DNA of 25,823 nucleotides from a virus. Location of the stretch: positions 6,674 through 32,496 of the IMG/VR virus record IMGVR_UViG_3300030328_003178. One strand, 5' to 3'. Every line of letters begins with the position of its first letter. The first letter of the stretch is position 1. A program made the position numbers and the translations under genes. This document shows positions 5,201 through 25,823 of this stretch, piece by piece. The notes beneath the pieces are model-generated. The model saw only the letters and a list, made by a program, of their open reading frames with translations, was not told the origin of the DNA and searched no databases.

Positions 5201-8200
5201 CAAATAATGGTTGGGGTAATATCGCTGGGGATGGTACTGACACTCGTACTGATGGAGAGATGAGAGTAACTGATTTTGCAACTCCTTGGAAAAACATGAG
5301 AAACAATACTTCTTCTTTTGGCCCTACTTTCTTTATAGACTCCGTGCACATGGCCGCCGGGCAAAGCGAGGCAAGTGATTATGCTAAGTATTGTTGTGTG
5401 ACTTGGTCAGGAGCAACGGCTGGACAAGAAAAATCAGCGGAAGATTCTAGTTGGAGTTATCCACCTTTTAAAACATGGATTACTGATTTTGGTGATACAA
5501 CAGGTTTTTTAACAGCAAGAAAAGAAAAGCTAAATGTAGGCGGAGACATAAGAGCATTAAGAGATATAGTACAAGGAAAGGGAGGTAATCGCGTGAGAAA
5601 CAAGGCTATGATTAACCAAATGTGGCTTGATAATAATTTAATCTCCGCATCACCTGGTTTACCTGAAAATGAAGATTATGACGGTTTGAGAATAGATGGG
5701 TGGGTTGGTCCTTTACAGGGCGTGTCAAGAAGTACACCACAATCTGATTGGCATCGTGGCGATAACCACGTGAACGGTTTAGAAGGTCTTGTTACTACGA
5801 GTGAAAACCATTCTAAAGGACCTAGAAGATGGTTTAGTGGTATAACTGGATCTAAAACTGACTACGGTGTTGGAACAGACACTAAAGCGTACGCTGACAA
5901 TCACGATGACGTTGGCAGGCATTTTATGCACTTATCATTTTTTGCACCTGGTAAAGATTTACATGATGGCAATTGGAATTCGTTATACCATGATGATGCC
6001 GTCGGAATGATATATGGTCCCCAAGGTTTTGGTGCAAATCTTCAGGGTATATGGGGTGGTGGTGTTTTTACAGGCGAGGAAGAAAATGAAACATTTGGAG
6101 ACACGACTGATCCAGTTGAAAAATATTTACATTTTCCAATGGAAGGTAATTATGATGATAGTTTAAACTATCTACCAGAAACACCAGGCCCAGGTGTTGG
6201 TTTTGGTTACGATGTAAAATACAGAGAGCTACACGAGAGACAATGGGATCCTACTTTTAATATAAATGGTGATGATAATAATGAGATACGTGATTTTATT
6301 AGAAATTTACACCCAGGTTCTAAGTTCAGGTTTAATAGAGTTGGTACTAACAGCGTGATTGATGACACGGTATATACCATTAAAAAGGTACAAATAAAAA
6401 AATTATATAATCACACCTCTTGGAGAAAGCCTTATAATCGACATGTACTTCGTGCCAATGCCGTCTACACGTACCTCCCATCAAACGGCTCTGAAGATGA
6501 GGTTTATAGAAGTGTTGAAGAACAAGCAATGTACTGGTTAGACTCTGTCCCGAACGGCGGTCTTCCAGGCACACAAAACGCAAATGGTGCTGATCAAAAA
6601 GCTGGAGTTGGACAATATCCTAACGAAGGTTTAACTCAAAAAATAACAGATTTTGGAGCTTCTCATAATAGACGTGTTTGTTATATAATTGAGTTAGATA
6701 AAAATCCAGCTGATAGTAGTAGTTCGATGGGTCATCCTTTAAGCCAAAAAGTTGGAGGTAAGGATGCTTTAAGCGCTGATTTCCATAATGGTGATTACAC
6801 TGATATTGAATTTTTAGATCCAGTACAAGATTATTTATTGTCTGATTTGAGTAAGTTCCCAGCTATATGGGAACTCGATCCTAAAAAACAAGAAGTAGAT
6901 TTAGATATATATTATGAGGCTAGTAGTAATATACCGGTTAATATAAACAAAGATACTAATGAATTATTCGCTCCTATTGGTTGTAAAGTTGAAATAGTAG
7001 ACTCTCCTACAACAAGCGCGTCAACGTTATTATCATGGGATAATCACACTATGATTCTTGATCCAGGTTTTCCTCAAGGAACTAGTGGAACAGAAATAGA
7101 TTACTCAGGAAGATCATTTAAATTTACTAGACAAGATGGTAGTTATACTATTGCCGAAGCTGGAGCGCAAGATTTATCTGGTGTTACTACGGGTTTAAGA
7201 ACTAAAATTGTCATTAGAGAAGACATTGGAGAGGTAATATCATCTGGGTTAGCATGGAGCAATTGCTTTTCTTTTGGTAATGGAATAGAATCCAATAGAG
7301 TTAAAGATGATTTCAACGAGCCGTTTATTACTAACGGTGTAAAAGCATCCACTACAATACAAGAAACTTATCAAGAAGAAAGAAGAAAAAATGGTTTAAT
7401 ATACTCTGGAATATATAATTCCAACTCTGGTGTAAATGATTTAAATCAGTTTATAATGGCTGAAAAAATCACTAAAGATTTAAACCCAACATATGGTAGT
7501 ATACAAAAATTATTTAGTAGAAATACAGATTTAGTTACGTTTTGTGAAGACAAAGTTCTTAAAGTTTTAGCAAATAAAGACGCTGTATTCAACGCTGATG
7601 GTAACCCGCAGTTGACAGCTAATGAAAATGTTTTAGGACAAACTATACCTTTTGTGGGTGAATATGGTATAGCTACAAATCCAGAGTCTTTTGCGTCAGA
7701 GTCTTATAGAGCTTATTTTACAGACAAACAAAGAGGTGCGGTGCTTAGATTGTCTAAAGATGGTTTAACACCTATATCTAAAGCTGGAATGAACGATTGG
7801 TTTAGAGATAATTTATCACGGTACCACTCTTTAATTGGTACTTACGACTCTTATAAAGAAGGTTATAACTTAACATTATCTAACGTGCCGGAGTTTAGCG
7901 AAAACTTTATATTAGATTCTTATTTAGATACTGGAGAAGCATTGGAAGCTTACACGTTAGGTTCTTTAAGTTTAGTGTCAAATCCAGGGATTGCCAATGG
8001 AGTTTCCTTGCATTATATTTTTGAACAAAGTAAAGTAAACAGCTATAGTACTCCTGTTAACGCGTTTGATTGGCCTGCTTTTACTCAAGCCTCTTATGAT
8101 TTAACCGCCACTATCTCAGTAATACACCACGTCGAGATGCTAGCTGGAGATATTAAACCAGCGGTGCCAGAAATTCTCCCTGGATCACAACAAACTCAAA

Positions 8201-11200
8201 GCAATTGGGAGGTAATAGCGACAAATCCCGCGACAGGACAACAACAATCGTTCACTGGCTATGGCCCTACATCCGCCGCTGCAGAACAAAACGCGATTAA
8301 CGCTGGGTACACTGAAGGTATTCAAACTACTAACTTTGTGCCGGCTACTTATACTTCAAGCTTGCCAGAGAGTGGTAGTGGTGTGTCAGGAAGATTTTGG
8401 CATGCTAATTTCGAAACTTGGAGCCAAAACATTTGGGGGAATGATTATCTAAATGCAGGCAATCCTGGTAGCATGCATATTGATCCTTTTATACATGGTT
8501 ATATTAGAAGAAACCATGGTGGTAGTTACGGTTATGTCAACGAATTTCAATCAACCCCTGGCACGGCCCCTTTAAATGCTAAAACTTGGGGTACTTGGTA
8601 CAGCCAAGATCCAGCTGTAGAAAAATTACTACATTTTGGTACTCAAGGAACTAACGGAACATACGTGTCTAATTGTATTACTAGAAATCAAAGTACTAGC
8701 AATATAATGTTTGATAGAGTTTTAAATGATGACGCTTTTATTGAGACTTACTTAATTGGTTCACAACTATACTATAACAGCGTTTTAATTCCAGCATCAA
8801 ACGTGGGTGGATTAAACTATAACATTGGTAATCCACTTACTAGTAATAGTAATTTGCCTCCAAATTTTCCGTTAACTTTTGGGCAAACTGACACTGCTAG
8901 CGGAATTCTTCATAGAAAAGTATATAACGGTGATGAAATACATGTTGAAATAGAACTAAAATGTTTTCCTACTTATGTGTTGCCGGGAGATCCTGATTAC
9001 CCTGGATCATACCCAACTCAATACCTAGGTTTTGGACAAAACTATATTATACCTAAAATAGAACTTAGAGATGGTGCTAACGAAATAGATTCTAACAAGA
9101 TATGGAAAGAAGATGCAGTGGGAGTGGGCGGTCAGTGGTATAACGGTATGAAAAACCCTATGTCTTCGCCAGGTGGATCATCTTTTGAATATGTACATAC
9201 TGATGGTGACAGTGCATCAGGAGGCAATGGTACTTTTGAGTTTAGTGGATTTTCAAGACCTTCCGGTACAAATTACTATGCAGATTCAAATTCTGTTACC
9301 TTTCCAAATACAAATACTATAAACGGTTTAAGATGGGCTCACAGTCAAAACCGTCCTGCTCCACACGAAACTACAGACTCTAAAACTGTTATTATTAAAG
9401 CAAGTTGGAAATTTATAGACCCTGATCAACAAAAATCCTTTGGTCCTAAAAAAAATGGAGTTGATCATATAAGAACAAGAGCAGTTGTTGACTATCTTAG
9501 AGTGAGACTATCTTTACCAAGAGGTGGTCCTCCTGGTGGTTATTGGGTTAACAATACCTACAGCAGCGGTACTACTCCATACAAACAAATGGCTTACCCA
9601 CTGGTTGAGGTTAAAAATATGAAAATAACAAAAGCTTTTGGTGTAGATACTTCTTCTGTACAACCTAATTACGATCCTTTTACTGGAATAGAGACTACTA
9701 GCCAATATCCATATGGGCAACATGCTGTTGATGCTATTCCACCTGTTAAAGTTCCCGCGTGGACGGAAGTTATACATCATGGTTTAACTAGTAGTTGGAA
9801 TCACCCGGATAGTCATGGTTTTTGGTGGAGTAGATTACCTGGTAAATTTGGACAGACGTATAACCGCGTTGAAATCACTCAACAATCTAAAAACGTTAAC
9901 AACATATCACAACCACCAAACGTTCCTGTGAAATATTCAGTTCCTTACGATTGGGATCACTCGCTAAACCCAAATCCCGCTTATTTGAATTTAGGCCAGG
10001 GTGATGCTCCAAGAATTAACGACACAGCACATAATAACTACGGTCACAATGGCTCGGCTCACCAACCAACTGGAATCGGTGCACATGGCTTAGTCTTTAA
10101 TAGGAAGAGTGAGACAAACAATAATTATGATAGAAGTAATACTAGTTCCGCGCCAGCACTTGTTACTTATAATGAACAATATTTCCATGCTAGCAGCAAT
10201 GCCTCTGGGTCGACACATTTAATATATGATCTTCCAAGTGGATCGCATTGGAATTCTTCTGCTGGAAACAACTGGTATTTAGTAGATGTTGAGTTTGACA
10301 ATACTTATGGAGACGGTGTCCCCGCTAATCCAGGAAATCCAGATTTAAAAACAGAATACAGCCAACTTGTTTGGCCAAACACTAGGGTTATGGTTTTGGG
10401 AGTAGCAGATCATACAAATTTTAATTACATTAATGGTGTAGATATAAATTCTGAATATGGTGTAGGTTATTTTGATGGATCGGGTAATGCCAATAATCCA
10501 AGTGATAATTATTTACACGTTGGATTAGTACCTACAGAAAGGACGGAATATGGTCGTAATGATGGCTCTGGTGATAACAAAGTTGTATTAAGAGGTATAT
10601 TTAAAATTGATAGTAGTAGTAACGTCATGACACAAGGTCCAAGTTGGGCAACTTATGGTAAGGCTTCAAACCAATTTGCACTTAGAGTTTATAACGCAAA
10701 CAATGGTCTTAGAATAAATAGAATAATTGCTAAAAGATTATCTCATCCTTCTTATCTTTCAACTTGGGCTAGTACATCTGGTACAGCAGAAAAATGGGCG
10801 CTTAACGATGGTATAGGAAACACTAATACCATGGTACATATGTTTCAGAAAAAACATATTTACTTCCAGAGACCTGGGTTATGCTGGCAAGTTCCAGCGG
10901 ATAAAAATGATGGGCAATATTTTTGGACACAGGAATTTGGTACAGCTAACACTTCGCAACCTCCAACAGTATCAAACAAGGGTTGGGAATTGAGGTTTAC
11001 AGTTAACAATAATCCACGTACTGATAATTTTTCTGGAAAATTAAAAGGTTATATCACTATAGATGATGGTTCTGGTGATCACGAAGGTCTTTATTTTGAA
11101 GATATACAACACGAAGGTGATTATCTTATTAAATTTAATTTTGATGGTAATAAGAATAATTACAATCCATCTACAGTCGCGGCTGGTTTAGATCCCGAAC

Positions 11201-12735
11201 CGTGGGAGTTTTTACGTCTTAATCAAACGCCGGACCCGGATTACAGCACTATTGGAAATTTTGATATAGCAAGTTCACAAACTACCGGAGACTTCGCTTC
11301 TTCTGCAAACGTTATAGATAGAATAAAGTTTTCAGATGGAGATGTACCAGGCACAGCTCAAGAATATCAAATAAATAATATACAACTTACAGATTCAAGA
11401 AAAGTATTTTTAGGTGGTTCTGCTGGGTCTTGGAATTTTGATCAATTTAATACGTCTATAAATAATTATGTTTATTGGAAAACAGCAACTGATTCATCTC
11501 CTGAGGAATGCTTAGTATTTAACAATTGCCCAGCTGTTAATTATTATGGTGATAAATTTGGATTTATAAATGTAAACCAACAAATTGATAAAACTATAAA
11601 TCAATTTGAGCAATATAAAATAAAGTTCACACACAGTATATCTGAAAATAGCACTGCAAAATTAGCAATATATTATTATAACAGCAAAGGTTTTGGTTTT
11701 AAAATAAGTGATATTGATGACACCACGGGTACTATTACGGGTAAATTTGACTTACAAGGTAATAAAATAAGAGAAGTTGGTTTTAATCCACTTCAACCTT
11801 TAATTGTAACAATTGGTGAATTAGATTCAACAGGACAACCAGTGGAAGGTTCTACATGGAGTAATGTTAACGAATTTGATAGTACTTATGAAGCTGATTT
11901 AGTAAACTCTTTTGTGATAGCGGTACAAGGTGATGAAACGCAAAGAATAGATGGTACTATAGATAATATATCAATGCAGCAAGCCTTCACGATGTCTTAC
12001 GAAGATGATAAAACAGTGACTTTTAGCGAAACAGTTAATGGCTGGACTAGTTTCAAGTCTTTTATACCAGAAAATGGCTTGAGTTTATCTAAAAAATATT
12101 TCACATTTAAAGAGGGTGGATTATACCAACACTATGTGCCAAAACAAGGTAATTCATTAGGCGAGTATATTGATGGTAATTTTGTAGAGTACGAACCTAA
12201 AGAAGCTAATAATTATAATATATTTTATGGTGTAATTGGCCCACAATCTTACTCTAGTATAACAGCTGTTTTAAATCAAGAACCTTCTATAGTGAAAACA
12301 TTTAACACCTTAAATTATGAGGGTACTCAGGCTCATATTTTAAAGCCTTCAACGGTTTACAAAGACGGTCTTATTGTAAAATCAGAAAACGACTTAACTA
12401 ATACAAACAATGCTATAACGCTTGGTCTTGGCAATCTACCTGGATGGTCATGTGAAGATATTAAAACTGATCTAGACGTTGGAACTGTTAGCGAGTTCAT
12501 TAAAAAAGAGGGTAAGTGGTTTAACTTTATAAAAGGTAAATCTAATACTGATATTATAAACACAAACTTATTTAGCGTGCAGGGACTTGGATTTATAGAC
12601 TCTATAGAAATAATACCTGATGAACCAGAAGTAGGTGTAAATAATCTTGATGGAAATGCCGAAGCGATTGGAGGTTCTATTCCAGGGGGTACCGCTGGGG
12701 GCAATGGTAATACTAATGGTAATGGTGGTTATTAA
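2296..12735 (+). CDS. Giant tail-region virion protein (stabilisation/muzzle-like), 3479 aa
   Basis: This gene spans 40 percent of the window. The N-terminus carries GKMNKDLDERLVPNGQYR (11-28) and repeated LYWF/LLFWTD-type strands (about 70-140). This is the hallmark start of a family annotated in marine and crAss-like phages as tail stabilisation protein, probably a beta-propeller-rich tail hub or muzzle (family recalled, not searched). A second conserved block lies at about 1739-1850 (NTDLVTFCEDK, GEYGIATNPESF, GMNDWFRDN). The conserved C-terminal block is about 3234-3455 (SFKSFIPENGLS, FNTLNYEGTQ, KEGKWFNFIKGK), followed by a Gly/Asn-rich tail (3459-3479). The stretch about 1890-3230 is rich in Trp, His, Gly, Asn and aromatic residues and includes beta-sandwich-like segments such as GTIDNISMQQ near 3220. 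It is probably a set of added receptor-facing or glycan-binding modules. There is no signal peptide or clear enzyme motif. The start lies 3 bases after the previous stop. I am confident it is virion structural and less so about its exact place. Confidence 0.65.
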   Translation: MPEIKNTFLQGKMNKDLDERLVPNGQYRHAMNVEVATAEDSDIGTVKNILGNHRVEELVGVGFVCVGSIADEKTNKLYWFISSYEKDVILEYDGVNDVALPVVVDLNAGNFKAVLKFSGNIITGINIIDNLLFWTDNNSEPKKINIDICKAGTDPSGDIHTQLEFKNGSFNGVTAELVSPSPLPTLVSGSDDIRYSDNGQYLWAEQKQIEKLFPKEIIDDITNNVIPFTYDTSEFDASNPYNIRHYRNGKFLGVKQVTVQGVDRDTGNPSWPFGNTIKSHLDDFIIGDVIFGDNLTIDLEERHITVVRPKPLNAPAVKINHSENSNSARNIPNLFETKFPRFSYRYKFRDGEYSTFAPFTVPVFNPKYPKDTSASKDTNIFYNKDNAYDIKEPYNKAMINSIHSIELTDFVSAKTPEDAIEIEILYKQEESSVIYSIGTIKHVDPEWHATSNHENAGASIGIGKASFPRAFQAEGGYTKGRYTVTTENIYAALPANQLLRPWDNVPKKALAQEITGNRIVYGNYVQNYDLNQNTQVSVGYSDRNNTFSNFETQALPSIKSQRNYQLGVVYCDKYGRETPVFTSDHAALNVPWQDGDGSKNASKSLQLNVSTPVSFPEWVDSLKFFIKESSNQYYNLIMDRAWVTKRTYELDNSEGHMWISFPSSDRNKISEEDYIILKKKVGTGEGQVAFENKFKVIDIKNEAPDAIKYELVTYSVIHNEPLSGSTSYNRLAGDKDNSLFRNGHRRPDREVDVLRCNKNMLVNHHTAAGPFEMLGQVPLHEDQETPGFGPIKTKDLYVSWSRISNNSEGDACSKKYKIIGGSLDATHGYTLRLANKITRIDADIAHVNGASDGDDAETNLLHPDLVFKVEKKQLKDSEDFSGKFFVKISKNQITDLIENGSPVSILDKFQVRSKTSIWYWQDYLGPSNSNYEYSTDDTSYGMTNYEGARISYAGDYQNWLHYTDTSNPPNNGWGNIAGDGTDTRTDGEMRVTDFATPWKNMRNNTSSFGPTFFIDSVHMAAGQSEASDYAKYCCVTWSGATAGQEKSAEDSSWSYPPFKTWITDFGDTTGFLTARKEKLNVGGDIRALRDIVQGKGGNRVRNKAMINQMWLDNNLISASPGLPENEDYDGLRIDGWVGPLQGVSRSTPQSDWHRGDNHVNGLEGLVTTSENHSKGPRRWFSGITGSKTDYGVGTDTKAYADNHDDVGRHFMHLSFFAPGKDLHDGNWNSLYHDDAVGMIYGPQGFGANLQGIWGGGVFTGEEENETFGDTTDPVEKYLHFPMEGNYDDSLNYLPETPGPGVGFGYDVKYRELHERQWDPTFNINGDDNNEIRDFIRNLHPGSKFRFNRVGTNSVIDDTVYTIKKVQIKKLYNHTSWRKPYNRHVLRANAVYTYLPSNGSEDEVYRSVEEQAMYWLDSVPNGGLPGTQNANGADQKAGVGQYPNEGLTQKITDFGASHNRRVCYIIELDKNPADSSSSMGHPLSQKVGGKDALSADFHNGDYTDIEFLDPVQDYLLSDLSKFPAIWELDPKKQEVDLDIYYEASSNIPVNINKDTNELFAPIGCKVEIVDSPTTSASTLLSWDNHTMILDPGFPQGTSGTEIDYSGRSFKFTRQDGSYTIAEAGAQDLSGVTTGLRTKIVIREDIGEVISSGLAWSNCFSFGNGIESNRVKDDFNEPFITNGVKASTTIQETYQEERRKNGLIYSGIYNSNSGVNDLNQFIMAEKITKDLNPTYGSIQKLFSRNTDLVTFCEDKVLKVLANKDAVFNADGNPQLTANENVLGQTIPFVGEYGIATNPESFASESYRAYFTDKQRGAVLRLSKDGLTPISKAGMNDWFRDNLSRYHSLIGTYDSYKEGYNLTLSNVPEFSENFILDSYLDTGEALEAYTLGSLSLVSNPGIANGVSLHYIFEQSKVNSYSTPVNAFDWPAFTQASYDLTATISVIHHVEMLAGDIKPAVPEILPGSQQTQSNWEVIATNPATGQQQSFTGYGPTSAAAEQNAINAGYTEGIQTTNFVPATYTSSLPESGSGVSGRFWHANFETWSQNIWGNDYLNAGNPGSMHIDPFIHGYIRRNHGGSYGYVNEFQSTPGTAPLNAKTWGTWYSQDPAVEKLLHFGTQGTNGTYVSNCITRNQSTSNIMFDRVLNDDAFIETYLIGSQLYYNSVLIPASNVGGLNYNIGNPLTSNSNLPPNFPLTFGQTDTASGILHRKVYNGDEIHVEIELKCFPTYVLPGDPDYPGSYPTQYLGFGQNYIIPKIELRDGANEIDSNKIWKEDAVGVGGQWYNGMKNPMSSPGGSSFEYVHTDGDSASGGNGTFEFSGFSRPSGTNYYADSNSVTFPNTNTINGLRWAHSQNRPAPHETTDSKTVIIKASWKFIDPDQQKSFGPKKNGVDHIRTRAVVDYLRVRLSLPRGGPPGGYWVNNTYSSGTTPYKQMAYPLVEVKNMKITKAFGVDTSSVQPNYDPFTGIETTSQYPYGQHAVDAIPPVKVPAWTEVIHHGLTSSWNHPDSHGFWWSRLPGKFGQTYNRVEITQQSKNVNNISQPPNVPVKYSVPYDWDHSLNPNPAYLNLGQGDAPRINDTAHNNYGHNGSAHQPTGIGAHGLVFNRKSETNNNYDRSNTSSAPALVTYNEQYFHASSNASGSTHLIYDLPSGSHWNSSAGNNWYLVDVEFDNTYGDGVPANPGNPDLKTEYSQLVWPNTRVMVLGVADHTNFNYINGVDINSEYGVGYFDGSGNANNPSDNYLHVGLVPTERTEYGRNDGSGDNKVVLRGIFKIDSSSNVMTQGPSWATYGKASNQFALRVYNANNGLRINRIIAKRLSHPSYLSTWASTSGTAEKWALNDGIGNTNTMVHMFQKKHIYFQRPGLCWQVPADKNDGQYFWTQEFGTANTSQPPTVSNKGWELRFTVNNNPRTDNFSGKLKGYITIDDGSGDHEGLYFEDIQHEGDYLIKFNFDGNKNNYNPSTVAAGLDPEPWEFLRLNQTPDPDYSTIGNFDIASSQTTGDFASSANVIDRIKFSDGDVPGTAQEYQINNIQLTDSRKVFLGGSAGSWNFDQFNTSINNYVYWKTATDSSPEECLVFNNCPAVNYYGDKFGFINVNQQIDKTINQFEQYKIKFTHSISENSTAKLAIYYYNSKGFGFKISDIDDTTGTITGKFDLQGNKIREVGFNPLQPLIVTIGELDSTGQPVEGSTWSNVNEFDSTYEADLVNSFVIAVQGDETQRIDGTIDNISMQQAFTMSYEDDKTVTFSETVNGWTSFKSFIPENGLSLSKKYFTFKEGGLYQHYVPKQGNSLGEYIDGNFVEYEPKEANNYNIFYGVIGPQSYSSITAVLNQEPSIVKTFNTLNYEGTQAHILKPSTVYKDGLIVKSENDLTNTNNAITLGLGNLPGWSCEDIKTDLDVGTVSEFIKKEGKWFNFIKGKSNTDIINTNLFSVQGLGFIDSIEIIPDEPEVGVNNLDGNAEAIGGSIPGGTAGGNGNTNGNGGY

Positions 12736-13992: not shown

Positions 13993-14343
13993 ATGGCTAT
14001 AGTACAAGTAAATTTTAATAAAAAACCTAATTGTTCACTACAAGTTGGGGACAGAGCTTACGTTTCCTCTAAAATTAGTGATATTATTATAGGTGATCCA
14101 GCATATGCGGGTATTATAACAGAGGTAAATGGTAGTGGTGTAAAAATTAATAACACAGACGCACTTATTTTAGATCCAAATAACCCAAGTAATTCACCAC
14201 AGTTTTTTTCATTTGCGAAAGATATAGTTGCAAACGAATCTAGTTTAAAAGGATATTATGCAGATATCACTTTTAAAAATTATTCAAATAATTATGCGGA
14301 ATTATTCGCTATTAGCTCAGAAATAAACCCTAGTAGTAAATAA
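13993..14343 (+). CDS. Small conserved phage protein, probable virion component, 116 aa
   Basis: This is a compact, mostly beta protein. VNFNKKPNCSLQVGDRAYVS (6-25) and the glycine-containing turn at 39-50 (AGIITEVNGSGV, SH3-like in feel) are followed by FFSFAKDIVANESSLKGYYA (70-89) and AELFAISSEI (101-110). I recall this pattern (a 'VGD.AY' start, 'FFSKD...LKGYYAE' middle and 'KAELFAVSSEI' end) as a recurring hypothetical protein beside tail genes in marine phages, with no known function. The gene lies 12 bases after the 410-aa gene and ends the first gene block; a 44-base spacer follows. It is likely a small tail or tail-tip subunit, but nothing in the sequence proves a role. Confidence 0.55.
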   Translation: MAIVQVNFNKKPNCSLQVGDRAYVSSKISDIIIGDPAYAGIITEVNGSGVKINNTDALILDPNNPSNSPQFFSFAKDIVANESSLKGYYADITFKNYSNNYAELFAISSEINPSSK

Positions 14344-14387
14344 AGCACTAAAAGTGTGACTATATAAGTACACTTAAATTAAATTAA
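14344..14387 (+). promoter_or_regulatory. Inter-block spacer with candidate phage promoter word GTGACTATATAA and small stem-loop
   Basis: This 44-base gap separates the tail block from the internal-protein block. It holds GTGACTATATAA at 14356-14367, repeated exactly at 25070-25081 in the other inter-block spacer. The word resembles the SP6-family promoter core (GTGACACTATAG with two bases missing), so a single-subunit phage RNA polymerase promoter is a reasonable guess. AAGTGT (14352-14357) and ACACTT (14370-14375) form a 6-pair inverted repeat overlapping the word, and GCACT (45-49 of the same line) can compete for the same AGTGT. No T-run follows, so a terminator is unlikely. The A/T-rich bases 14374-14387 form the leader of the next gene. 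Confidence 0.4.
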
Positions 14388-14831
14388 ATGAATAACAACA
14401 TAAACTTTAGACCCTTTAAACAAGGGGACTATGAAACATGTGTCGAGTGGTGGAAGTGGTGGTGGAAACGCACTGGTTTAAACCCAGTTCAAAGAGCTTT
14501 ATTACCAAGCGATGATAGATGTTTTATGATAGAAAAAGATGGGGTACCAGTAGCGGCTTATTTTTTACTAGTATTTGAGTTTCGTTTAGTAGCTTTTACA
14601 ACATATCTAGTAACAAACCCAAATTATAAAGAAAAAGACAGAAGAGAAATAATAAAACTTTTAGTAACGAAAGTAGAAAAAGAAGCAGAAAAAATAGGTG
14701 TGATGCAGTTGTTTACTATCTGCATGAATGATCACATGACAAATATACACGATAGTTTAGATTGGATGTTAATACCAGTTCAAAATGAAGGTTTTAAATA
14801 TCTAACAAATAACTTTATAAAACAAAAATAA
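14388..14831 (+). CDS. GNAT-like acetyltransferase-fold phage protein, 147 aa
   Basis: The N-terminus NFRPFKQGDYETCVEWW (6-22) matches the opening strand and helix of GNAT-fold proteins (R-x-F/A-x-x-x-D-Y). It is followed by the central strands (FMIEKDGVPVAAYFLLV, 46-62; RLVAFTTYLVTNP, 66-78) and a long helix (EIIKLLVTKVEKEAEKIG, 87-104). The length suits a minimal GNAT. The acetyl-CoA pyrophosphate loop (Q/R-x-x-G-x-A/G) is not evident, so it may bind another ligand or be catalytically inert. The Trp cluster at residues 21-26 (five of six are Trp) is unusual. Similar small GNAT-like genes sit beside internal virion genes in T7-like and marine phages (recalled), where their role is unknown. 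The gene opens the second block after the putative promoter, and its stop is one base from the next ATG. Confidence 0.5.
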   Translation: MNNNINFRPFKQGDYETCVEWWKWWWKRTGLNPVQRALLPSDDRCFMIEKDGVPVAAYFLLVFEFRLVAFTTYLVTNPNYKEKDRREIIKLLVTKVEKEAEKIGVMQLFTICMNDHMTNIHDSLDWMLIPVQNEGFKYLTNNFIKQK

Positions 14832-17885: not shown

Positions 17886-20800
17886 ATGGCAGATTATAAA
17901 GACGCTAATGGTGTAGTTTATAGAGAGAACGATATTCGTGCTTGGGCTAGAAATCGAGGTGTAAGCTTTGAGGATTATCTTAAAATCAAAGGATTGGCTT
18001 TTGACAAAATGGATTATGATGACGCTGGGTTTGCCGATAAAGTTATTAGTGTTGGCGCAAGTCTTGGTAAAGATATACTTGGTAAACTAGAAGGTTTCGC
18101 TGACATTAAAGATGCGGCTATGTTCGCCGCTATGACTGACGACAACGAAATGACTTCAGAAGCTAAAAAAGTAGCTATGGACGCCATGAAAAAAGCCAAC
18201 GGGTGGAAAAGTGATCCTTTTGAAAAAATGATTGAAGCTCTAGACAAACAAACATTAGAGTACGATGAAGCTAGTATAACGGAAACCTTTAAAAAAGGAG
18301 ATTATGCTACGGGTGGCTTTAGGGCTGTTGAAGCTGGTATTGCAAGTTTACCATCAATATTAATGGCAGCGATGGGCGTGCCTGGTTTAGCAGCTTTAGC
18401 TGTTACAACTGCTGGTAGTAAATTTGAAGAAGAGTTTGAAGAAGACGCGTCTAGAGACGTAACTTCTTTATTGGCAAATGCGGCTGGTTCTGGTGTAATT
18501 GAAGCAGGTTTTGAATTTGCTACTAGGGGTTTGTTAAAAAGAGCTGGTTTAATTGGTGGTTTAGGGGGTGAAGCTAATGAAAAACTAGCTAAAGAAATAC
18601 TTAAAGGTGGAGCTGGAAGTATTATAAAAAATATTACAGGTGGTATTGCATCTGAAGGTGCTTCTGAAGCCGCTACAGAGTTAACGTCTGCTCTATGGGA
18701 TCAAGTTAGTTTAGGTAAAAAAATTGATTGGGAAAGAAAATGGTACGAAATTGCTGATGCTGGTATTGTAGGTGGTTTAGTAGGTGGTGTAACTGGTGGT
18801 ATTGGAGAAATAAATAAGAAATCTCAAAAGTCTAAAAATTTAGCATACTCAATACTAGCCGATGCTGACACTAAGAAGGAGATTGCAGATTTGCAAGAAA
18901 AGTTATCAAAACTAATTTTAGATCAAAAAGGCACAAGAAAAAAAGCAGATCCTAAAGATGATGATGGTGAATACGAAAGACTTCAGGACATGATTATGGA
19001 TGTTCGAGCTGATATTGTTGGAGCCAAAGAAAGAGCACTACAAGGTTTATCCGAAATGAACGGTGAAGAATTTGATGCTTATTTTGCAAACGTTAAAAAA
19101 GCTAGACCATTAAATAAGATTGTAAAAGATAAGAAAAAATCTAAAGAGGCGCAGGCTGCTGCACAAAAAGAATTAGATGTTATAAACACTGAAAACAAAG
19201 CGATAGTAGAAAACGCTAATAATAGAAAGTTAGAGAAAAACCTAAAGCAAGCTGAGACTAGGGCTAGACAGAGAGGTGGTAAGGTCACAGTACACGAAAC
19301 TCAAGAAGAATATATAGAAGCCGTAAGTGGAGTATCAGCTAAAAAAGTATTAAATAAAGATGGTGAGTTAGATTACACTGACGAATTTAAAAAAGCCGCT
19401 AGAGAACATAGATGGAGTGATGGTAAAATACTAGATGGTGTTTCTCATATAAATAAACAAACAGCTAGAAAGCTAGGATCAGTGTCAGTAGGTTCTCACG
19501 AGGTTCTTCACTCTATTATGGATAAGTATATTAGAAATGAGGACGGTACTGTAAAAGATGAGGGTATAGAGTTGATTGATGACATGTTAGACGGCATGTC
19601 TAAGAGTGATAGGGCTATTGTTCAAAAAAGAATAGACGATAACTATAGGTTTAATAAAGACGGCACTGAGAAGAGTAAAAAAGACTATTATGATGAATAT
19701 TTAAATGTTCTTCATGATGCTATTGTAAAAAAGCAAATTACTTATAACAAAAACTTTGATACAATTGGTGGTAGGTTTAGCGGTGTATTCCAAAGGTTTG
19801 GTTATGGCAATATTGACCTATCTACAGGGAAAGGTCTTTTTAATCTTATAAGAACTTATACCAAAGCAATTGAAACTGGAGAAAGTACTGCTGATTTAGA
19901 TAAAATTATAGAAGACTCAAAAGGTTTTGCTATAACAAATAAAAAACAAGGTAGAAAATCAATTAACTTAGGTTCTGAAAACGACGGTGTACCTTTAGAC
20001 GAAAAAATAGATCCACTAACCGAAGGAGCTAAAACAAAAGAGGACTTGATGAAAGGCGGTATAAACTCTCCTTTCTCCAAAATATATCAAGGTATTTTAG
20101 ATGGTAGTTTTGATAGAATTTTTGGTACTGTCAGCGAGGAACAAAGGCAAATACAAAGGCAAGATTTAGCAGATAGATTCGCTGGTATGACAGAAGAAGG
20201 CGGTTATGACCCAGCTAAAACACCTGAGTTATCTAAATGGATGTTTGGTGGTAGTGGTATTGCTGGTAATATTGAATACACAAAAAGAAAAGCAAAAAAA
20301 GAATTAGCTATAAAATCTGAAAAAGCTAAAAGAGAAAAATCTATTGATGCTAAAAAACCCACTAAAGAAGGTGAAACTGGATTTGATGTTGCTGACACTG
20401 GAACTTTGACGCCCGAGGAAGCGTTGATAAAAAAAGAAGAGCAAGTTAAAGAACTTGAAAAGAAACAAGTAACATTTGCGGCATCGTTAGGTTTAGGGAC
20501 TGAACTACAAAACAGAATAAAAGCGGCTGTTATAAAAACATTTGGCACAAAACTACCAGCAGTGACAGACGCAAAGTATAGAAACGCTTTATCAAAAGCA
20601 TTTAGAAATGAAATAGGTAAGTCTATAGAGGAAATATTTGGTGTTGAAAAAACTTATGATGAATTTATAGATAAGTATTTTAAAGGTATAGTTTTTCCAA
20701 ATATTTCTAACGCTAGACTAATACAAATGGAAAGGCTTCTGCCTAAAGATGAAAAAATATTTGTAGACAAAAGAAGGATAACAAAAGTAAAAGAAGTAAG

Positions 20801-23800
20801 AGAATTACAAAAACAAGGGTTAATAGCTAAAACAGTTAAGCCAGCGTCAGGACCAAATCTTATTCAGAAGAAAAAACTTAATATGGATAAGGTTAAAGCG
20901 TTCTTTAACCCACCAGCAATAAATCCAAAAACAGGCGAAAAGAGTGGCTTGAGAGGTACTAGAAAAAGAGCGTTAGCAGAGGCTTTAGCAGAGGAGTTAG
21001 CACAAAACCAAACAGATGCAGTATTACAAAGTACTGACGTAATGAATAAAGTCAAAGAGTTAAATGCTTTATTTGAATATGATGACGTAAATAACTATGC
21101 GGCAGAGGTTGCTAGGCAAATGGATAGAGGTGCTAGAAATTCTGAAAGTTTAAACATGGCAGCTGAGTTAGATGGTTTAAACACCGCTGATTTACGTTTA
21201 GCTCTTAACATGGATGCCATTGAAATGGAAGATCAACATCCAAACACTTACAACGCTTTAAAAAATGATTCTGCCGACAAATACGAGGGGAGACAAGGTT
21301 TTATCGATAATGATGGTTTTTTAATAAGACTTACAAGGGGTATTACAAATCCTAAGGTTTTACAATTTATAAAAGATAAAGGGTATCAAACAGTTTCTAA
21401 AAAGGATGGTAAAAAAACCTATGATACCGAGGGAATGAAAAACCATTTTGATAATTACTCGTTAGGGTTACTCGACTTTATTCCAGGATGGATGGGTGTT
21501 AGAGAGTCTTTAGTGACTGGAAAATATCAATTTCTAACTAATGCTATATTAAAAGGTGGTAGTGACAGAGGTAATGCTGGCGGCCCGTTAAATATTAGAA
21601 AGAGAAACCAAACTAGATTTGCTCAAAAAATAGGAGAAAGAACCAGAATGGGCGTTAGTAAGTACATGAGTAAAGCCACTAAAGATCTATGGAAACAACT
21701 AGAAAAAATCCAAGGTGATTTAGTTTTAATGGAGTCTACTATGACTGAACCTGAAAGTGTTTTAAGAAGAGTTAAGGAGGTTCAAGCTATGAATAAAACC
21801 GCTAAAGAAAAAGCGGTTATACTTAGAAAAGAATTTAACCCAAAAGCTTTAGCAGCGGCTCAATTATTATTTAAAGCCTATAATTCCAGCGTACAAGATT
21901 GGGTTAATTCTCAAGTAGAAACTGGTAAGATGACTAGAGAAGAAGCTATTGGTTATGTTATAAGAGACAAACAAAAAAATACAAACTTTAATAAAGGCGA
22001 GAGAGCTTTAGCGGCCTTAACCTCTGTTTATTTAGTTGATAAATCTCAAAAAACAACCGGATATAAAGGTGAGCATGTTGTTGATTCAGCATCTGTTTCA
22101 GCTGCAACAGTTGTTAGTATATATAATGGAACTTTTTTACAAGACGCAAATACAATATTAAAAGGATTTGAGCAATCACTTTTACCAAAAGAATTAGCAG
22201 ATAGTTTAGATGATCTAGGCGGTCGTAATAGCCAACTTGGTAACTATAGGTTTTTAATGAATCCTGATATAGGTAAAAACACATATGACTTAGCCACGGG
22301 TAAAACAATGTACCAACTTGGAGTTGAACAACATGGTAAAGATCTAGCTAAGTCTATGGAAAAGATCAACGATACTAGTAGGGCTAGTGAAAATCTAGGT
22401 AAATTTTACAAAGCGGAGTCTTTCCGACTCGATCCTAATGCAAAGCCAAAAGGTATTAGTATTTTTGATTTTGATGAAACAGCTGGTATTAGCGATAATG
22501 TTATTATAGCAACTAAAAACGGTATTACAGAAACAATAGAATCAGCTGATTGGCCTTTAGTTGGCGATGCTATGGTTAAAGATGGTTGGAAAATGGATTT
22601 TTCAGATTTTAACAAAGTTACAAACGGAAGACCTGGACCGCTAATGCAAAAGTTAAAAAACCAAATTAAAAAATATGGTAATAAAGCTGTGTTCATACTA
22701 ACAGCTAGAGCTTCTCAAAGTCAACAAGCAATACATGAGTATTTAAAAAGTGAGGGTGTTGATTTACCACTAGAAAATATAACAGGTCTAGGAAATAGCA
22801 CTGGTGAAGCTAAGGCTGATTGGATGATTGATAAACTAGCGGAAGGTTATAATGATTTTTATTTTGTTGACGATGCAATGCCGAACGTTAAAGCTGTCGA
22901 TAATTTATTAAGTCAATTTGATGTTAAATCAAAATCTGTACAAGCAATATCTAGAAATAGTGAAAGTCTTGGTAGACAGGTTGACGAAATGATAGAAATT
23001 AACGAGGGAATTAAAGTCGATGTTGTTATAGATGAGGCAGAAGCGAGAACTCGTGGGGCTAAAAAAGGAAAAGGCGTTGGGGCTAAATTCTTTAACACGC
23101 CTGGTTCTAATGATTTCATGGGTTTAATGTACACGATAGCAAATGCAAAAGGTAAGCTCGGTGAAAATCAAATTGCGTTTTTTGAGGAAAATTTATACAA
23201 ACCTTATAGAAGAGGTGTTGATAGAATAAATAGATTAAAACAAGGTATATCTAATAATTATAAAGCGCTATTAAAATCATTACCTGATGCAGCTGGTAAA
23301 TTAAAAAAGACAGTACCTGATACTAACTTTACCTATGATACTGCGGTAAGAGTTTATTTGTTTGATCAAGCTGGGCATGAAATACCGGGTTTAAGCGCGG
23401 AAAATAAAGCCAAGTTAATAGAAGCTGTAAAAGCAGATCAAGGACTAATTGATTTAGCTAGTGGCGTTGCTGGTATTGTTAATAGTCCAGAGCTTTATAT
23501 TAAACCTGATCAAAATTGGCTTGGAGATACTATATTATCTGATTTAGATAGTATAACTAATAACGTGGGTAGAAAACAACATATACAGGAATTTATTGAA
23601 AATAGAAAATTAATTTTTGGTGATTGGAAAAACGGTAAATTATCTGGCCCGATGATGAATAAGTTAGAAGCTCTTTACGGCCCTGATTACGTTGAAGCAT
23701 TGAACGATATGATATGGCGTATGGAAAATGGAAACGCAAGACCAAGTGGTTCTAACGCTCAAGTTAATAAATGGATGAATTGGCTTACTAATTCTATTGG

Positions 23801-24458
23801 TGCAATCATGTTTTTTAACACAAGATCTGCGTTACTACAAACATTATCAACAGTTAACTTTGTAAATTGGGGAGATAATAATCCTATAAAAGCAGCAGCT
23901 GCATTTGCAAACCAAAAACAGTTTTGGAAAGATTTTACCACTATATTTAACTCTGATTTTCTTAAACAAAGAAGAGGAGGTTTAAAGCTCGATGTTAACG
24001 AAGCCGCTCTAGCGAAAGCTATAAATCAAGGTGGCAAAAGTAAAATTAAAGCCGCTATAGATTACCTGTTAAGAATTGGATTTTTACCCACACAAATGGC
24101 GGATAGCTTTGCTATTGCCGCTGGTGGTGCTACATTTTTAAGAAATAGAGCTGAAACATATGTCAAGCAAGGTATGTCTAAAACAGAAGCCGAAGCAAAA
24201 GCATTTCAAGATATGGTAGACGCTTCAGAACCAGTTCAGCAATCATCAGATCCATCACTTATATCTAAAGAACAGGCTAGTATTTTAGGTAGAATAGTTT
24301 TAGCATTTCAAAATGTTACAATGCAATATGCTAGACGTATGAAAAAATCTGTTATTGATTTAGCAAAAGGAAGAGGTGACGTTAAAACAAACATATCGAG
24401 AATCGTTTACTACGGAGCTGCTCAAAACTTTGTATTCAACCTGCTTTGTTTGCGATAG
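17886..24458 (+). CDS. Giant polyvalent ejection-type virion protein: membrane region, HEXXH zincin, HAD phosphatase; C-terminus frameshifted, 2190 aa
   Basis: Domains in order: a helical N-terminus; a hydrophobic, Gly/Ala-rich region (about 142-310) with GIASLPSILMAAMGVPGLAA (151-170) and IVGGLVGGVTGGIG (294-307), likely membrane-active; and a charged coiled coil (about 325-465). Next is a zincin-like domain (about 466-640) with HEVLH at 538-542 and E604 in DEYLNVLHDAI as a plausible third zinc ligand. A long helical middle follows (about 640-1500). A HAD-superfamily phosphatase domain (about 1520-1690) has every key residue: D1528 and D1530 with T1532 (FDFDET), T1606 (ILTAR), K1643 and D1662-D1663 (FVDDAMPN). 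The conserved C-terminal helical region (about 1750-2185) follows. The arrangement matches large 'polyvalent' proteins of marine phages, thought to travel with the genome into the cell. The reading frame stops at 24456-24458 in the middle of a conserved hydrophobic segment, and the missing end continues in another frame. Peptidase and phosphatase activity are inferred from motifs only. Confidence 0.7.
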   Translation: MADYKDANGVVYRENDIRAWARNRGVSFEDYLKIKGLAFDKMDYDDAGFADKVISVGASLGKDILGKLEGFADIKDAAMFAAMTDDNEMTSEAKKVAMDAMKKANGWKSDPFEKMIEALDKQTLEYDEASITETFKKGDYATGGFRAVEAGIASLPSILMAAMGVPGLAALAVTTAGSKFEEEFEEDASRDVTSLLANAAGSGVIEAGFEFATRGLLKRAGLIGGLGGEANEKLAKEILKGGAGSIIKNITGGIASEGASEAATELTSALWDQVSLGKKIDWERKWYEIADAGIVGGLVGGVTGGIGEINKKSQKSKNLAYSILADADTKKEIADLQEKLSKLILDQKGTRKKADPKDDDGEYERLQDMIMDVRADIVGAKERALQGLSEMNGEEFDAYFANVKKARPLNKIVKDKKKSKEAQAAAQKELDVINTENKAIVENANNRKLEKNLKQAETRARQRGGKVTVHETQEEYIEAVSGVSAKKVLNKDGELDYTDEFKKAAREHRWSDGKILDGVSHINKQTARKLGSVSVGSHEVLHSIMDKYIRNEDGTVKDEGIELIDDMLDGMSKSDRAIVQKRIDDNYRFNKDGTEKSKKDYYDEYLNVLHDAIVKKQITYNKNFDTIGGRFSGVFQRFGYGNIDLSTGKGLFNLIRTYTKAIETGESTADLDKIIEDSKGFAITNKKQGRKSINLGSENDGVPLDEKIDPLTEGAKTKEDLMKGGINSPFSKIYQGILDGSFDRIFGTVSEEQRQIQRQDLADRFAGMTEEGGYDPAKTPELSKWMFGGSGIAGNIEYTKRKAKKELAIKSEKAKREKSIDAKKPTKEGETGFDVADTGTLTPEEALIKKEEQVKELEKKQVTFAASLGLGTELQNRIKAAVIKTFGTKLPAVTDAKYRNALSKAFRNEIGKSIEEIFGVEKTYDEFIDKYFKGIVFPNISNARLIQMERLLPKDEKIFVDKRRITKVKEVRELQKQGLIAKTVKPASGPNLIQKKKLNMDKVKAFFNPPAINPKTGEKSGLRGTRKRALAEALAEELAQNQTDAVLQSTDVMNKVKELNALFEYDDVNNYAAEVARQMDRGARNSESLNMAAELDGLNTADLRLALNMDAIEMEDQHPNTYNALKNDSADKYEGRQGFIDNDGFLIRLTRGITNPKVLQFIKDKGYQTVSKKDGKKTYDTEGMKNHFDNYSLGLLDFIPGWMGVRESLVTGKYQFLTNAILKGGSDRGNAGGPLNIRKRNQTRFAQKIGERTRMGVSKYMSKATKDLWKQLEKIQGDLVLMESTMTEPESVLRRVKEVQAMNKTAKEKAVILRKEFNPKALAAAQLLFKAYNSSVQDWVNSQVETGKMTREEAIGYVIRDKQKNTNFNKGERALAALTSVYLVDKSQKTTGYKGEHVVDSASVSAATVVSIYNGTFLQDANTILKGFEQSLLPKELADSLDDLGGRNSQLGNYRFLMNPDIGKNTYDLATGKTMYQLGVEQHGKDLAKSMEKINDTSRASENLGKFYKAESFRLDPNAKPKGISIFDFDETAGISDNVIIATKNGITETIESADWPLVGDAMVKDGWKMDFSDFNKVTNGRPGPLMQKLKNQIKKYGNKAVFILTARASQSQQAIHEYLKSEGVDLPLENITGLGNSTGEAKADWMIDKLAEGYNDFYFVDDAMPNVKAVDNLLSQFDVKSKSVQAISRNSESLGRQVDEMIEINEGIKVDVVIDEAEARTRGAKKGKGVGAKFFNTPGSNDFMGLMYTIANAKGKLGENQIAFFEENLYKPYRRGVDRINRLKQGISNNYKALLKSLPDAAGKLKKTVPDTNFTYDTAVRVYLFDQAGHEIPGLSAENKAKLIEAVKADQGLIDLASGVAGIVNSPELYIKPDQNWLGDTILSDLDSITNNVGRKQHIQEFIENRKLIFGDWKNGKLSGPMMNKLEALYGPDYVEALNDMIWRMENGNARPSGSNAQVNKWMNWLTNSIGAIMFFNTRSALLQTLSTVNFVNWGDNNPIKAAAAFANQKQFWKDFTTIFNSDFLKQRRGGLKLDVNEAALAKAINQGGKSKIKAAIDYLLRIGFLPTQMADSFAIAAGGATFLRNRAETYVKQGMSKTEAEAKAFQDMVDASEPVQQSSDPSLISKEQASILGRIVLAFQNVTMQYARRMKKSVIDLAKGRGDVKTNISRIVYYGAAQNFVFNLLCLR
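24434..24458 (+). other. Frameshift site splitting the giant polyvalent gene
   Basis: Frame 0 reads NFVFNLLCLR and stops at 24456-24458. The -1 frame across the same bases reads IQPALFAIAFDDEED, which carries on the expected family sequence (recalled as 'QNFIFNALQQALFALAFD'). One extra base after 24440 would give NFVFNPALFAIAF in a single frame. A loss of about 10 bases relative to relatives would explain the shift equally well. I see no canonical X-XXY-YYZ slippery heptamer in the right phase. Confidence 0.7.
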
Positions 24459-25045
24459 CATTTGATGATGAAGAGGATAAAAAGAAACTAGCTAGAAGAG
24501 ATAGAGTTGTCAACGGTATGGCTGACTCTATTTTAAGAGGTTTAGGTATACCTGGGGCAATATTTGCAACTGGTAAAAATGCTATTATAGAATACGCAAA
24601 GCAAAATAAAAAAGGTTGGAGTGGAGATCAAACTTATACCTTGTTACAGCTATTAAACATTTCACCACCAATTGGAAGTAAGGCTAGAAAGTTTTACTCC
24701 TCTACTCAAACAGAAAAATGGAATAAAAAAATAATTCCAGAGATGTCAATGTGGGATATAAGCAATCCAAGATATCAATCTATAGGTAATGCTATTGAGG
24801 GTATAACGAACGTTCCTATGGGTAGAACTGTTAATAAGATAAACAATATTAAACAAGCTTTAGATTCTGATCACCAAACGTGGCAAAGGATAGCAATGAT
24901 GTTAGGTTGGAATAGATGGGATGTTGGTGTAAAAGATAGTGATGTGTTGAAAATAAAAGAAGAAGTTAAACACAACAAGAAAACCAATAAAAAATCTAGT
25001 GGCTACAAAAAACCTCAATTTTCAAAACCTAAATTTGGAAAGTAG
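24446..25045 (+). CDS. Displaced C-terminal part of the giant polyvalent protein, 199 codons
   Basis: The sequence begins with a hydrophobic segment and an acidic patch (FAIAFDDEEDKKK), then GMADSILRGLGIPGA (about residues 24-38), a hydrophobic helix, LLQLLNISPPIGSKARK (66-82) and WQRIAMMLGWNRWDVG near 145-160. It ends in a Lys-rich basic tail. These elements are the usual C-terminal end of the same large protein family whose first 2190 residues lie upstream, so it is best read as the end of that gene rather than an independent gene. The only start codon near the beginning is TTG at 24446, overlapping the upstream stop by 13 bases; the first ATG in frame is roughly 75 bases further in, inside conserved sequence. 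If it is translated, that must be by re-initiation or frameshifting. The basic tail may bind DNA. Confidence 0.6.
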   Translation: MFAIAFDDEEDKKKLARRDRVVNGMADSILRGLGIPGAIFATGKNAIIEYAKQNKKGWSGDQTYTLLQLLNISPPIGSKARKFYSSTQTEKWNKKIIPEMSMWDISNPRYQSIGNAIEGITNVPMGRTVNKINNIKQALDSDHQTWQRIAMMLGWNRWDVGVKDSDVLKIKEEVKHNKKTNKKSSGYKKPQFSKPKFGK

Positions 25046-25083
25046 ATAGGTAAACAATTAAAAAAATAAGTGACTATATAACA
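25046..25083 (+). promoter_or_regulatory. Spacer with second copy of GTGACTATATAA before the envelope-protein gene
   Basis: GTGACTATATAA occupies 25070-25081, 3 bases before the ATG at 25084, and is identical to 14356-14367. The 5' flanks of both copies are A-rich. Its position right against the start codon means a promoter here would give a nearly leaderless transcript. Alternatively the word could be a translation or RNA-processing signal. No stem-loop or T-run terminator is visible in the rest of the gap. Confidence 0.4.
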
Positions 25084-25823
25084 ATGGTGAAAAGATTAAT
25101 AATATTACTAATAACTATACTTTTTGTAGCTTGTTTAGCTCCAAAAAAATGTTGTTCGCAAACATATGGAATTGAAGATGTTAAGAAGCTATTAAAGTTC
25201 TCTACGTTTTACGCTGCCGTTAATGGTGGGACGTCACTTTCTGATGTTGACGTTTTCTCTGTGGATAATGGTTTGTCTACACAGACCATTTCAACTCCTT
25301 ATGATTATAATTTTACCATAGGTTTACGGAAGATAGCAAGGTTTGGCTATGAAAACAAAGCGCAAACATTTTACGATGGAACTGAATCTAATTACAGTGA
25401 TGCGGCCACTGTAGGTAAAGTCAAAGGAGTTGAGTACTTATTTGAGGTTGATTATAAAAGACAAGAAGGTGTAGACTATATGGATCAACACCATTTTATT
25501 AGATTTAGTTCTGATGATGGTTGTGGAGATGAGTTGTGTATAAACTTTTTTGCTTTAAAGTTAGAATACTTAGAAGATGGTTTTGCTGATATTAAATACT
25601 TTGAAGCTTCTGAAAGATATAGACAACGTAAAGGTAAAAACCTATCATGGAATGTTGGACTTACACATCGTCTTGCCGAGCCTTATGGTTACGATGCTTT
25701 AGACGAATGGATGTTGGCAAATGGCAATATACATTACACTTACTTAGCAATACAAGAAGGCTACGAGGTAGATGTGTATAGCAACACATATTATAATCCA
25801 GCTGGAGAAATTGTAGCTACTAG
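25084..25823 (+). CDS. Exported, outer-membrane-like beta-rich phage protein, 3'-truncated by the window end (246 codons seen)
   Basis: The ATG at 25084 opens a reading frame that runs off the window. Residues 1-26 are a signal peptide: positive start (MVKR), hydrophobic core (about 5-19), then a likely signal peptidase I cut after Gln26 (CCSQ|TYG), the form common in flavobacteria. Cys17 (FVAC) is an imperfect alternative lipobox. The mature part alternates polar and hydrophobic residues with many aromatics, such as NFTIGLRKIARFGYE, GVEYLFEVDYKRQE, FADIKYFEASERYR and SWNVGLTHRLAEPYGYD, as in outer-membrane beta-barrels or periplasmic beta-proteins. I recall homologues in uncultured marine phages with no known function. 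Expression with the virion genes suggests a role in ejection, lysis or blocking superinfection; none is proven. Two cysteine-rich spots (C23-C24, and C in DDGCGDELC) could form disulfides. Confidence 0.6.
   Translation, partial: MVKRLIILLITILFVACLAPKKCCSQTYGIEDVKKLLKFSTFYAAVNGGTSLSDVDVFSVDNGLSTQTISTPYDYNFTIGLRKIARFGYENKAQTFYDGTESNYSDAATVGKVKGVEYLFEVDYKRQEGVDYMDQHHFIRFSSDDGCGDELCINFFALKLEYLEDGFADIKYFEASERYRQRKGKNLSWNVGLTHRLAEPYGYDALDEWMLANGNIHYTYLAIQEGYEVDVYSNTYYNPAGEIVAT

Follow-up and report, generated by a model that had tools for sequence, protein, structure and literature searches.

What does a phage do with an exported, outer-membrane-type protein that is encoded beside its virion genes? 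The question is raised by the open reading frame at the downstream end of the window, that is, of the whole stretch of DNA analysed here (25,823 nucleotides, bases 6674-32496 of a 32,496-bp virus record). The preliminary description of this DNA had placed the frame correctly: the ATG at 25084 opens a frame of 246 codons that runs off the contig end, and since the record stops where the window ends, the gene is truncated. Complete genes, which that description had called for, were found in relatives, with products of about 353-374 aa; the gene cut off here would have ~366 codons. The features needed below are as follows.

14336-14364, plus strand: promoter-like element, second copy, 5' of the acetyltransferase-like gene at 14388 (genome scan)
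17886-25045, plus strand: giant virion gene of polyvalent/ejection type, immediately 5' of the barrel gene (cluster GIANT, adjoining the barrel)
25050-25078, plus strand: promoter-like element GTAAA-N15-GTGACTATA, 5 bases ahead of the barrel start codon (kept in relatives; genome scan)
25084-25823, plus strand: gene of the predicted outer-membrane barrel, 5' two thirds (246 codons, frame open at the contig end)
25084-25131, plus strand: signal peptide of lipoprotein type, MVKRLIILLITILFVA ahead of C17, lipobox FVAC (sequence and family statistics)
25201-25677, plus strand: predicted strands 1-7 of 12, residues 40-198 (AlphaFold2, numbering from the 93%-identical relative L005)
25678-25821, plus strand: first part of the insert between strands 7 and 8, residues 199-246 (AlphaFold2 model)

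Gene family, phage and promoter-like element

Scans of IMG/VR with three family members returned 319, 431 and 547 stretches encoding relatives (overlapping sets), and the barrel family is present in hundreds of marine viral contigs. When the window frame was compared with 12 relatives, dN amounted to 0.04-0.15 and dS to 0.5-1.6, with a dN/dS of roughly 0.05-0.14 for the family. Given this low dN relative to dS, the barrel gene is real and under strong purifying selection. Sequence searches of Pfam, NCBIfam, PHROG and the PDB gave no family match. With E values up to 10, Pfam returned nothing for the relatives L005, L077 and L072 and no match of the barrel family for L161; PHROG was silent for the window frame and for L005, which is 93% identical to the window barrel. 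A sequence search of solved structures found no relative, nor were sequence relatives of the barrel found among cultured phages, where matches at E 8-9 were dismissed as noise. The analysis thereby gives a name to a frequent marine-virome gene that is unannotated in Pfam, NCBIfam and PHROGs. In a scan of GTDB genomes, barrel relatives turned up on three contigs only, belonging to a Nitrosopelagicus MAG (48%) and to a Maricaulis MAG (82-83%); these contigs (L161, L162 and L163) are probably mis-binned phage DNA.

Identities of 37-46% link the record's major capsid protein to its counterparts in the Flavobacterium elemo phages, Maribacter phage Panino, Cellulophaga phi38:1 and an uncultured podovirus, and the virion genes follow the same order as in these elemovirus-like podoviruses. 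The window phage thus shares its backbone with the Elemovirus and Cellulophaga phi38:1-like podoviruses, but the virion operon of the cultured members inspected ends without the cassette described below. The frames upstream of the barrel are head and ejection-type virion genes. The giant gene consists here of two overlapping frames (17886-24458 and 24446-25045, overlapping at 24446-24458) and of one ORF in relatives; the split reflects a frameshift that is either genuine or an artefact of assembly. Farther upstream, a single 3479-aa ORF at 2296-12735 has several matches to phrog_14478 (phage virion protein, profile of 1474 positions). A GNAT acetyltransferase-like gene at 14388-14831 (147 aa, phrog_17252, weak Acetyltransf_1) heads the ejection-protein operon, and a similar gene occupies the same place in other flavophages.

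The suspicion that the barrel gene has its own copy of a candidate promoter word proved justified, as a bipartite motif lies directly upstream of it. Of the word GTGACTATATA the window has exactly two copies, at 14356 and 25070, each lying between genes; the word is half of the element GTAAA-N15-GTRAYWATA. Four related genomes contain 12 sites of this element against about 0.2 expected from shuffles, a count that is partly post hoc because the pattern was drawn from some of the same sites. Independent support is provided by position and strand: all 12 sites are intergenic and close 5' of a gene. The element precedes the barrel in 45 further loci, and the ~38 bases ahead of the start codon are kept as a block in close relatives whose DNA farther upstream is unrelated. 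It is not unique to the barrel gene, as the bipartite pattern occurs up to five times per genome. Judging by sequence, the element might be read by a sigma factor (phrog_351, E 2e-20, Sigma70_r4) whose gene is present in the relative G001 (L252:16075-16830, minus strand). A search of 14 relatives for a T7-type RNA polymerase (PF00940) gave no match, with a control that was likewise silent.

The gene had been assigned to the virion region. This holds insofar as it adjoins virion genes, but it lies behind their operon, follows a promoter-like element of its own and heads a separate cassette. In 87 of the 90 close loci it immediately follows the gene of the giant virion protein, a placement that could mark the barrel as a virion component, be it a decoy, a pore or a part of the ejection apparatus. 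We consider this highly improbable, given the export signal in 150/152 members, the separate promoter-like element and the T4-like phages in which the barrel lies away from the giant virion gene. Furthermore, the cultured relatives inspected (Elemovirus and Panino) carry giant or tail-end genes, with no barrel detectable.

Export signal and predicted fold

The preliminary description had read the product as an exported protein with a strand-rich, aromatic mature part, and each of these points found support. The N-terminus, MVKRLIILLITILFVAC, reaches a top 9-residue hydropathy of 3.6 from residue 5, and 150 of the 152 complete distinct relatives possess an N-terminal hydrophobic core. Under simple pattern rules, applied in place of SignalP, the window protein and 48/152 complete relatives have a lipobox, and 100/152 have a signal-peptidase-I-type A-x-Q end. 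Phenylalanine, tryptophan and tyrosine together make up 16.4% of the mature part encoded here and 19.1% in the complete relative L005. Phenylalanine is the usual last residue of an outer-membrane β-barrel, and it ends 121 of the 152 complete barrels as an aromatic β-signal. In this contig the corresponding end, ...NYVIF, falls past the contig end. With a signal peptide and a C-terminal aromatic β-signal, Sec export and BAM insertion are expected.

An AlphaFold2 model based on 61 aligned relatives places 12 transmembrane strands within residues 40-365 (pLDDT 69, pTM 0.62); it supersedes an earlier run on a shallow alignment (pLDDT 57). The predicted strand count is even, as is needed to close a barrel. 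A long insert, residues 199-273 in L005, separates strands 7 and 8, and strands 8-12 lie past the contig end. The best VIA match of the model is Tsx (Z 16.3 over 199 residues, rmsd 3.5), with KdgM, NanC, autotransporter domains and OMPLA also among the leading matches, most of which are outer-membrane proteins with 12 strands. Foldseek against the PDB yielded outer-membrane barrels only, among the best 50 matches listed. In BFVD, outer-membrane barrels of other phages were matched, and the viral protein A0A516LKJ4 (name unassigned) aligned with E 9e-20 at 21% identity. The complete protein is strongly predicted to be an exported 12-strand outer-membrane β-barrel, and the topology prediction proposed beforehand, together with the VIA matches, upholds the view of a phage-encoded exported outer-membrane-type protein. 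The two outcomes named as contrary to that view were looked for, and neither was found: an export signal and a predicted outer-membrane barrel speak against a cytoplasmic protein, and a barrel fold with a signal peptide and no PHROG match speaks against a tail fibre or receptor-binding protein.

The resemblance to Tsx, KdgM and NanC, which are nucleoside and oligosaccharide channels, would suit a nutrient channel or porin that supplies the infected cell late in infection, an auxiliary metabolic role. We regard such a role as very unlikely, since similarity between 12-strand folds says little on function and the long conserved insert is atypical of a small channel; the cassette and the link to a cargo, presented below, would also be left unaccounted for. 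In the family alignment, with the predicted topology presumed, the outer loops, in which GFAD and WN hardly vary, match the strands in conservation, as does the insert, and some periplasmic turns are more variable. This conservation of the loops argues against a decoy or an arms-race loop, so that the decoy suggested in the preliminary description is disfavoured.

A four-gene envelope cassette

The barrel belongs to a four-gene envelope cassette composed of barrel, TMCC, TRX and cargo, which is common to elemovirus-like podoviruses and T4-like phages (the latter evidenced by a Gp23 capsid protein in 6/17 large records). By ORF clustering, among 164 loci with distinct barrels and within the DNA covered, TRX is found in 137, TMCC in 130 and the cargo in 126. 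TMCC is an inner-membrane protein of about 94 aa, consisting of one TM segment followed by a charged helical stretch (coiled coil); no sequence relatives of it were found among cultured phages. TRX is an exported thioredoxin-like protein of about 108 aa (e.g. L176:6433-6759). The two co-occur in 79/79 TMCC-anchored loci. Only 8 of 137 TRX proteins contain any CxxC, and W-N-x-A-N stands in place of WCGPC, which would make TRX a redox-dead thioredoxin. The cargo is a large secreted protein with GCTDPxAxNYDP-type repeats, and in most of the phages it ends in a sorting domain for the type IX secretion system (T9SS) of the host.

Gene order differs between the two groups of loci. In 40 of the 74 distant loci the order is CARGO-BARREL-TMCC-TRX, and the 52 adjacent cargo/barrel pairs of this group mostly overlap, with a spacing of -4 in 29 and of -1 in 12 (41/52). 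The lineage of the window has the giant virion gene, barrel, TMCC, TRX, further genes and then the cargo. In the window contig the cargo would lie beyond the contig end, as deduced from the close relatives L002, L013 and G001. The barrel is not an obligatory neighbour of the cargo, as several genomes have the cargo or TMCC-TRX apart from it; all 15 genomes picked via TMCC or cargo (15/15) encode a barrel elsewhere in the same genome, also when the genes are non-adjacent. A second small exported barrel-like protein of 139 aa, with a weak OMP_b-brl match, is encoded outside the cassette in G001 (L252:7944-8360, minus strand).

A cassette of this composition could serve lysis and release, with TMCC and barrel bridging the membranes in the manner of spanins, the barrel being the outer partner, and rupturing the outer membrane. 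By inspection, TMCC resembles an inner-membrane spanin in layout, with its short end in the cytoplasm, one TM and a coiled coil in the periplasm. In larger phages the cassette is often flanked by a small holin-like gene on one side and an amidase endolysin gene on the other; holin-like genes occur in 20/74 and amidase genes, whose identity was confirmed, in 18/74 distant loci. Against this stand the window lineage, with an amidase nearby in 0/90 and a holin-like gene in 4/90 loci, and the weakness of the holin assignment itself (phrog_6384, E 0.037). Moreover, a lysis module leaves the T9SS cargo and the covariation with its sorting domain unaccounted for, and we rate it as quite improbable. 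The barrel is in any case no o-spanin, that is, no small outer-membrane lipoprotein, as it measures 366 aa and only 48/152 members have a lipobox.

Cargo, sorting domain and a candidate carrier role

In most of the phages the cargo C-terminus is a type A sorting domain, with matches to PF18962 (Por_Secre_tail) and TIGR04183 above curated cut-offs. All 57 complete cargos (57/57) have a hydrophobic N-terminus, and YPNP occurs within the last 95 residues in 61/64 cargos of the distant group. Only Bacteroidota possess a T9SS (PMC12618676), in keeping with a flavobacterial-type host. The TIGR04183 domain is present in 15/19 genomes, nearly always in one copy, and the ratio of barrel to cargo is about one to one. 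In the genome G033 (245,646-bp record) sorting domain and barrel each occur twice, forming two pairs with about 200-450 bases between the partners (sorting domain 106892-107086 with barrel 107277-108332, and 225632-225826 with barrel 226280-227335). In the podovirus lineage, the cargo C-terminus is shortened and TIGR04183-negative in 15/20 (VTDLLGRP...YIYSDGxVxxKLIKQ) and has the full form in 5; TIGR04183 is recognised in 0/3 genomes of this lineage, the shortened C-termini giving weak local profile scores.

Barrel and sorting domain vary together in the distant group. Across 37 non-redundant loci, the distances between barrels track the distances between the last 70 cargo residues at r 0.85, compared with 0.64 for the preceding 200 cargo residues, 0.69 for TRX and 0.56 for TMCC, the last value being lowered because TMCC is short and conserved. 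The sorting domain was the best correlate of the barrel in all 500 subsamples, and the partial correlation given TRX or TMCC is 0.73-0.80. Even the 3' part of the barrel, which adjoins the TMCC gene, correlates better with the sorting domain (r 0.78) than with TMCC (0.48). Shared phylogeny and linkage account for part of the covariation, and in the window lineage none was seen (r 0.05, n=20).

This context, a T9SS-tagged cargo with about one barrel each, points to a role more specific than the exclusion, release, decoy or pore that had been suggested at the outset. Flavobacterium johnsoniae offers a model: its type B cargo needs a PorP/SprF-like carrier, which receives the cargo from the SprA translocon and keeps it on the cell surface, and the porP/sprF-like carrier genes usually lie directly downstream of type B cargo genes and are required for secretion (PMC12618676). 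By analogy we postulate, as the best supported of the explanations but with about evenly divided confidence, that the barrel serves the T9SS cargo of the phage as a phage-made carrier or anchor in the outer membrane. It would be made in the infected cell of marine Bacteroidota, exported by the host Sec machinery and inserted by host BAM as a 12-strand barrel. There it would take the phage cargo from the host translocon and hold it on the surface, working as SprF does for SprB, though unrelated in sequence. As an outcome, the cell surface would be remodelled late in infection, so that fewer competing phages adsorb or adhesion is changed; surface remodelling or superinfection exclusion is plausible. 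From this arrangement we infer that barrel and cargo touch, that the barrel acts as carrier and that superinfection or adhesion may be affected. Several points are contrary to the carrier model. The podovirus lineage has the barrel first and the cargo several genes later, most of its cargos end in the shortened form, and the covariation of barrel and sorting domain is absent there. No sequence similarity of the barrel to PorV or PorP/SprF was found, and type A sorting domains normally use the host PorV (PMC12618676) and need no private carrier. The phage pair has the genetics of the type B case and the sorting domain of type A.

Phage-encoded porins and Lom/Cor-type proteins are thought to exclude superinfection in enterobacteria. 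The barrel could likewise act by itself, blocking or displacing the receptor of competing phages in the outer membrane, and its export, its outer-membrane fold, its own promoter-like element and the existence of outer-membrane barrels in other phages (BFVD matches) are in line with such a function. However, three other envelope proteins and a T9SS cargo at about one to one are not needed for plain exclusion, the position beside late virion or lysis genes would be late for an exclusion protein, and the barrel loops are without sign of diversification. We therefore deem exclusion by the barrel alone unlikely. Lom and the Lc porin of PA-2 are outer-membrane proteins encoded by enterobacterial phages; they share with the window protein that the phage makes an outer-membrane barrel, but no sequence relation was found between them, and they come with no T9SS cargo or cassette.

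The carrier model draws on the likeness to the SprF/PorP-like carriers of SprB-type cargo. In both, an outer-membrane protein is encoded directly downstream of a T9SS cargo gene (in the larger phages, with 52 adjacent pairs), with about one carrier per cargo and apparent coevolution with the sorting domain. The phage barrel differs in having no PF11751/PorP_SprF or NCBIfam carrier match, in lacking a twin-cysteine C-terminal tail, in being phage-borne and in its reversed order in the window lineage; the phage cargo is of type A (TIGR04183/PF18962), theirs of type B. Because the sequence and cargo type differ in this way, the barrel was not filed under PorP/SprF. A PorP_SprF profile search of the window's record gave no match, with a control that was likewise silent. 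Twin cysteines (PKKCC) are seen near the mature N-terminus of the barrel and are missing in most members; their likeness to the twin-cysteine link of SprF is superficial, as they sit at the opposite end.

PorV is a larger FadL-like barrel and would act on the same sorting-domain type, type A. The phage protein, with 12 predicted strands, gave no Pfam or NCBIfam sequence match to PorV, which is also absent among the 50 VIA matches listed, and a FadL structure aligns with the barrel model at a VIA Z of only 9.8. Phage-encoded T9SS cargo has been noted before in single cases, unexplained: in the available text of the reports, it is described for Cryophage (PMC7468147) and for crAss-like contigs (PMC6949934). 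These cargos likewise have T9SS sorting domains and would use the host secretion system, but that text presents the cargo alone, in single phages, and describes no partner barrel or four-gene cassette. A phage-borne cargo/barrel pair with its own barrel family, common to unrelated phages, was not found in the literature searched.

What is new here is a conserved cassette, found in hundreds of marine viral contigs and in at least two unrelated phage types, that pairs a T9SS cargo with a barrel about one to one. We tentatively suggest, as a possibility that we hold with some reserve, that unrelated phages of marine Bacteroidota share a portable private branch of the T9SS. It would comprise a cargo tagged in the manner of the host, a phage-made carrier unrelated in sequence to PorV and PorP/SprF, TMCC and a CxxC-less TRX; together these would span the envelope and redirect host secretion and the host surface. 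Should the barrel be a carrier, evolution would have given phages a route of their own into the T9SS of one of the main polymer-degrading phyla of the ocean. The compact pair of carrier and sorting domain would then be suited to studying T9SS cargo recognition, and it makes testable predictions on the surface of infected Bacteroidota.

One further observation concerns the cargo genes. In L291:5941-6336, a lipoprotein signal (...AACAAPKKCCSQ) of the kind typical of window-lineage barrels stands on a cargo and not on a barrel. Signal sequences appear to have been exchanged between cargo and barrel genes.
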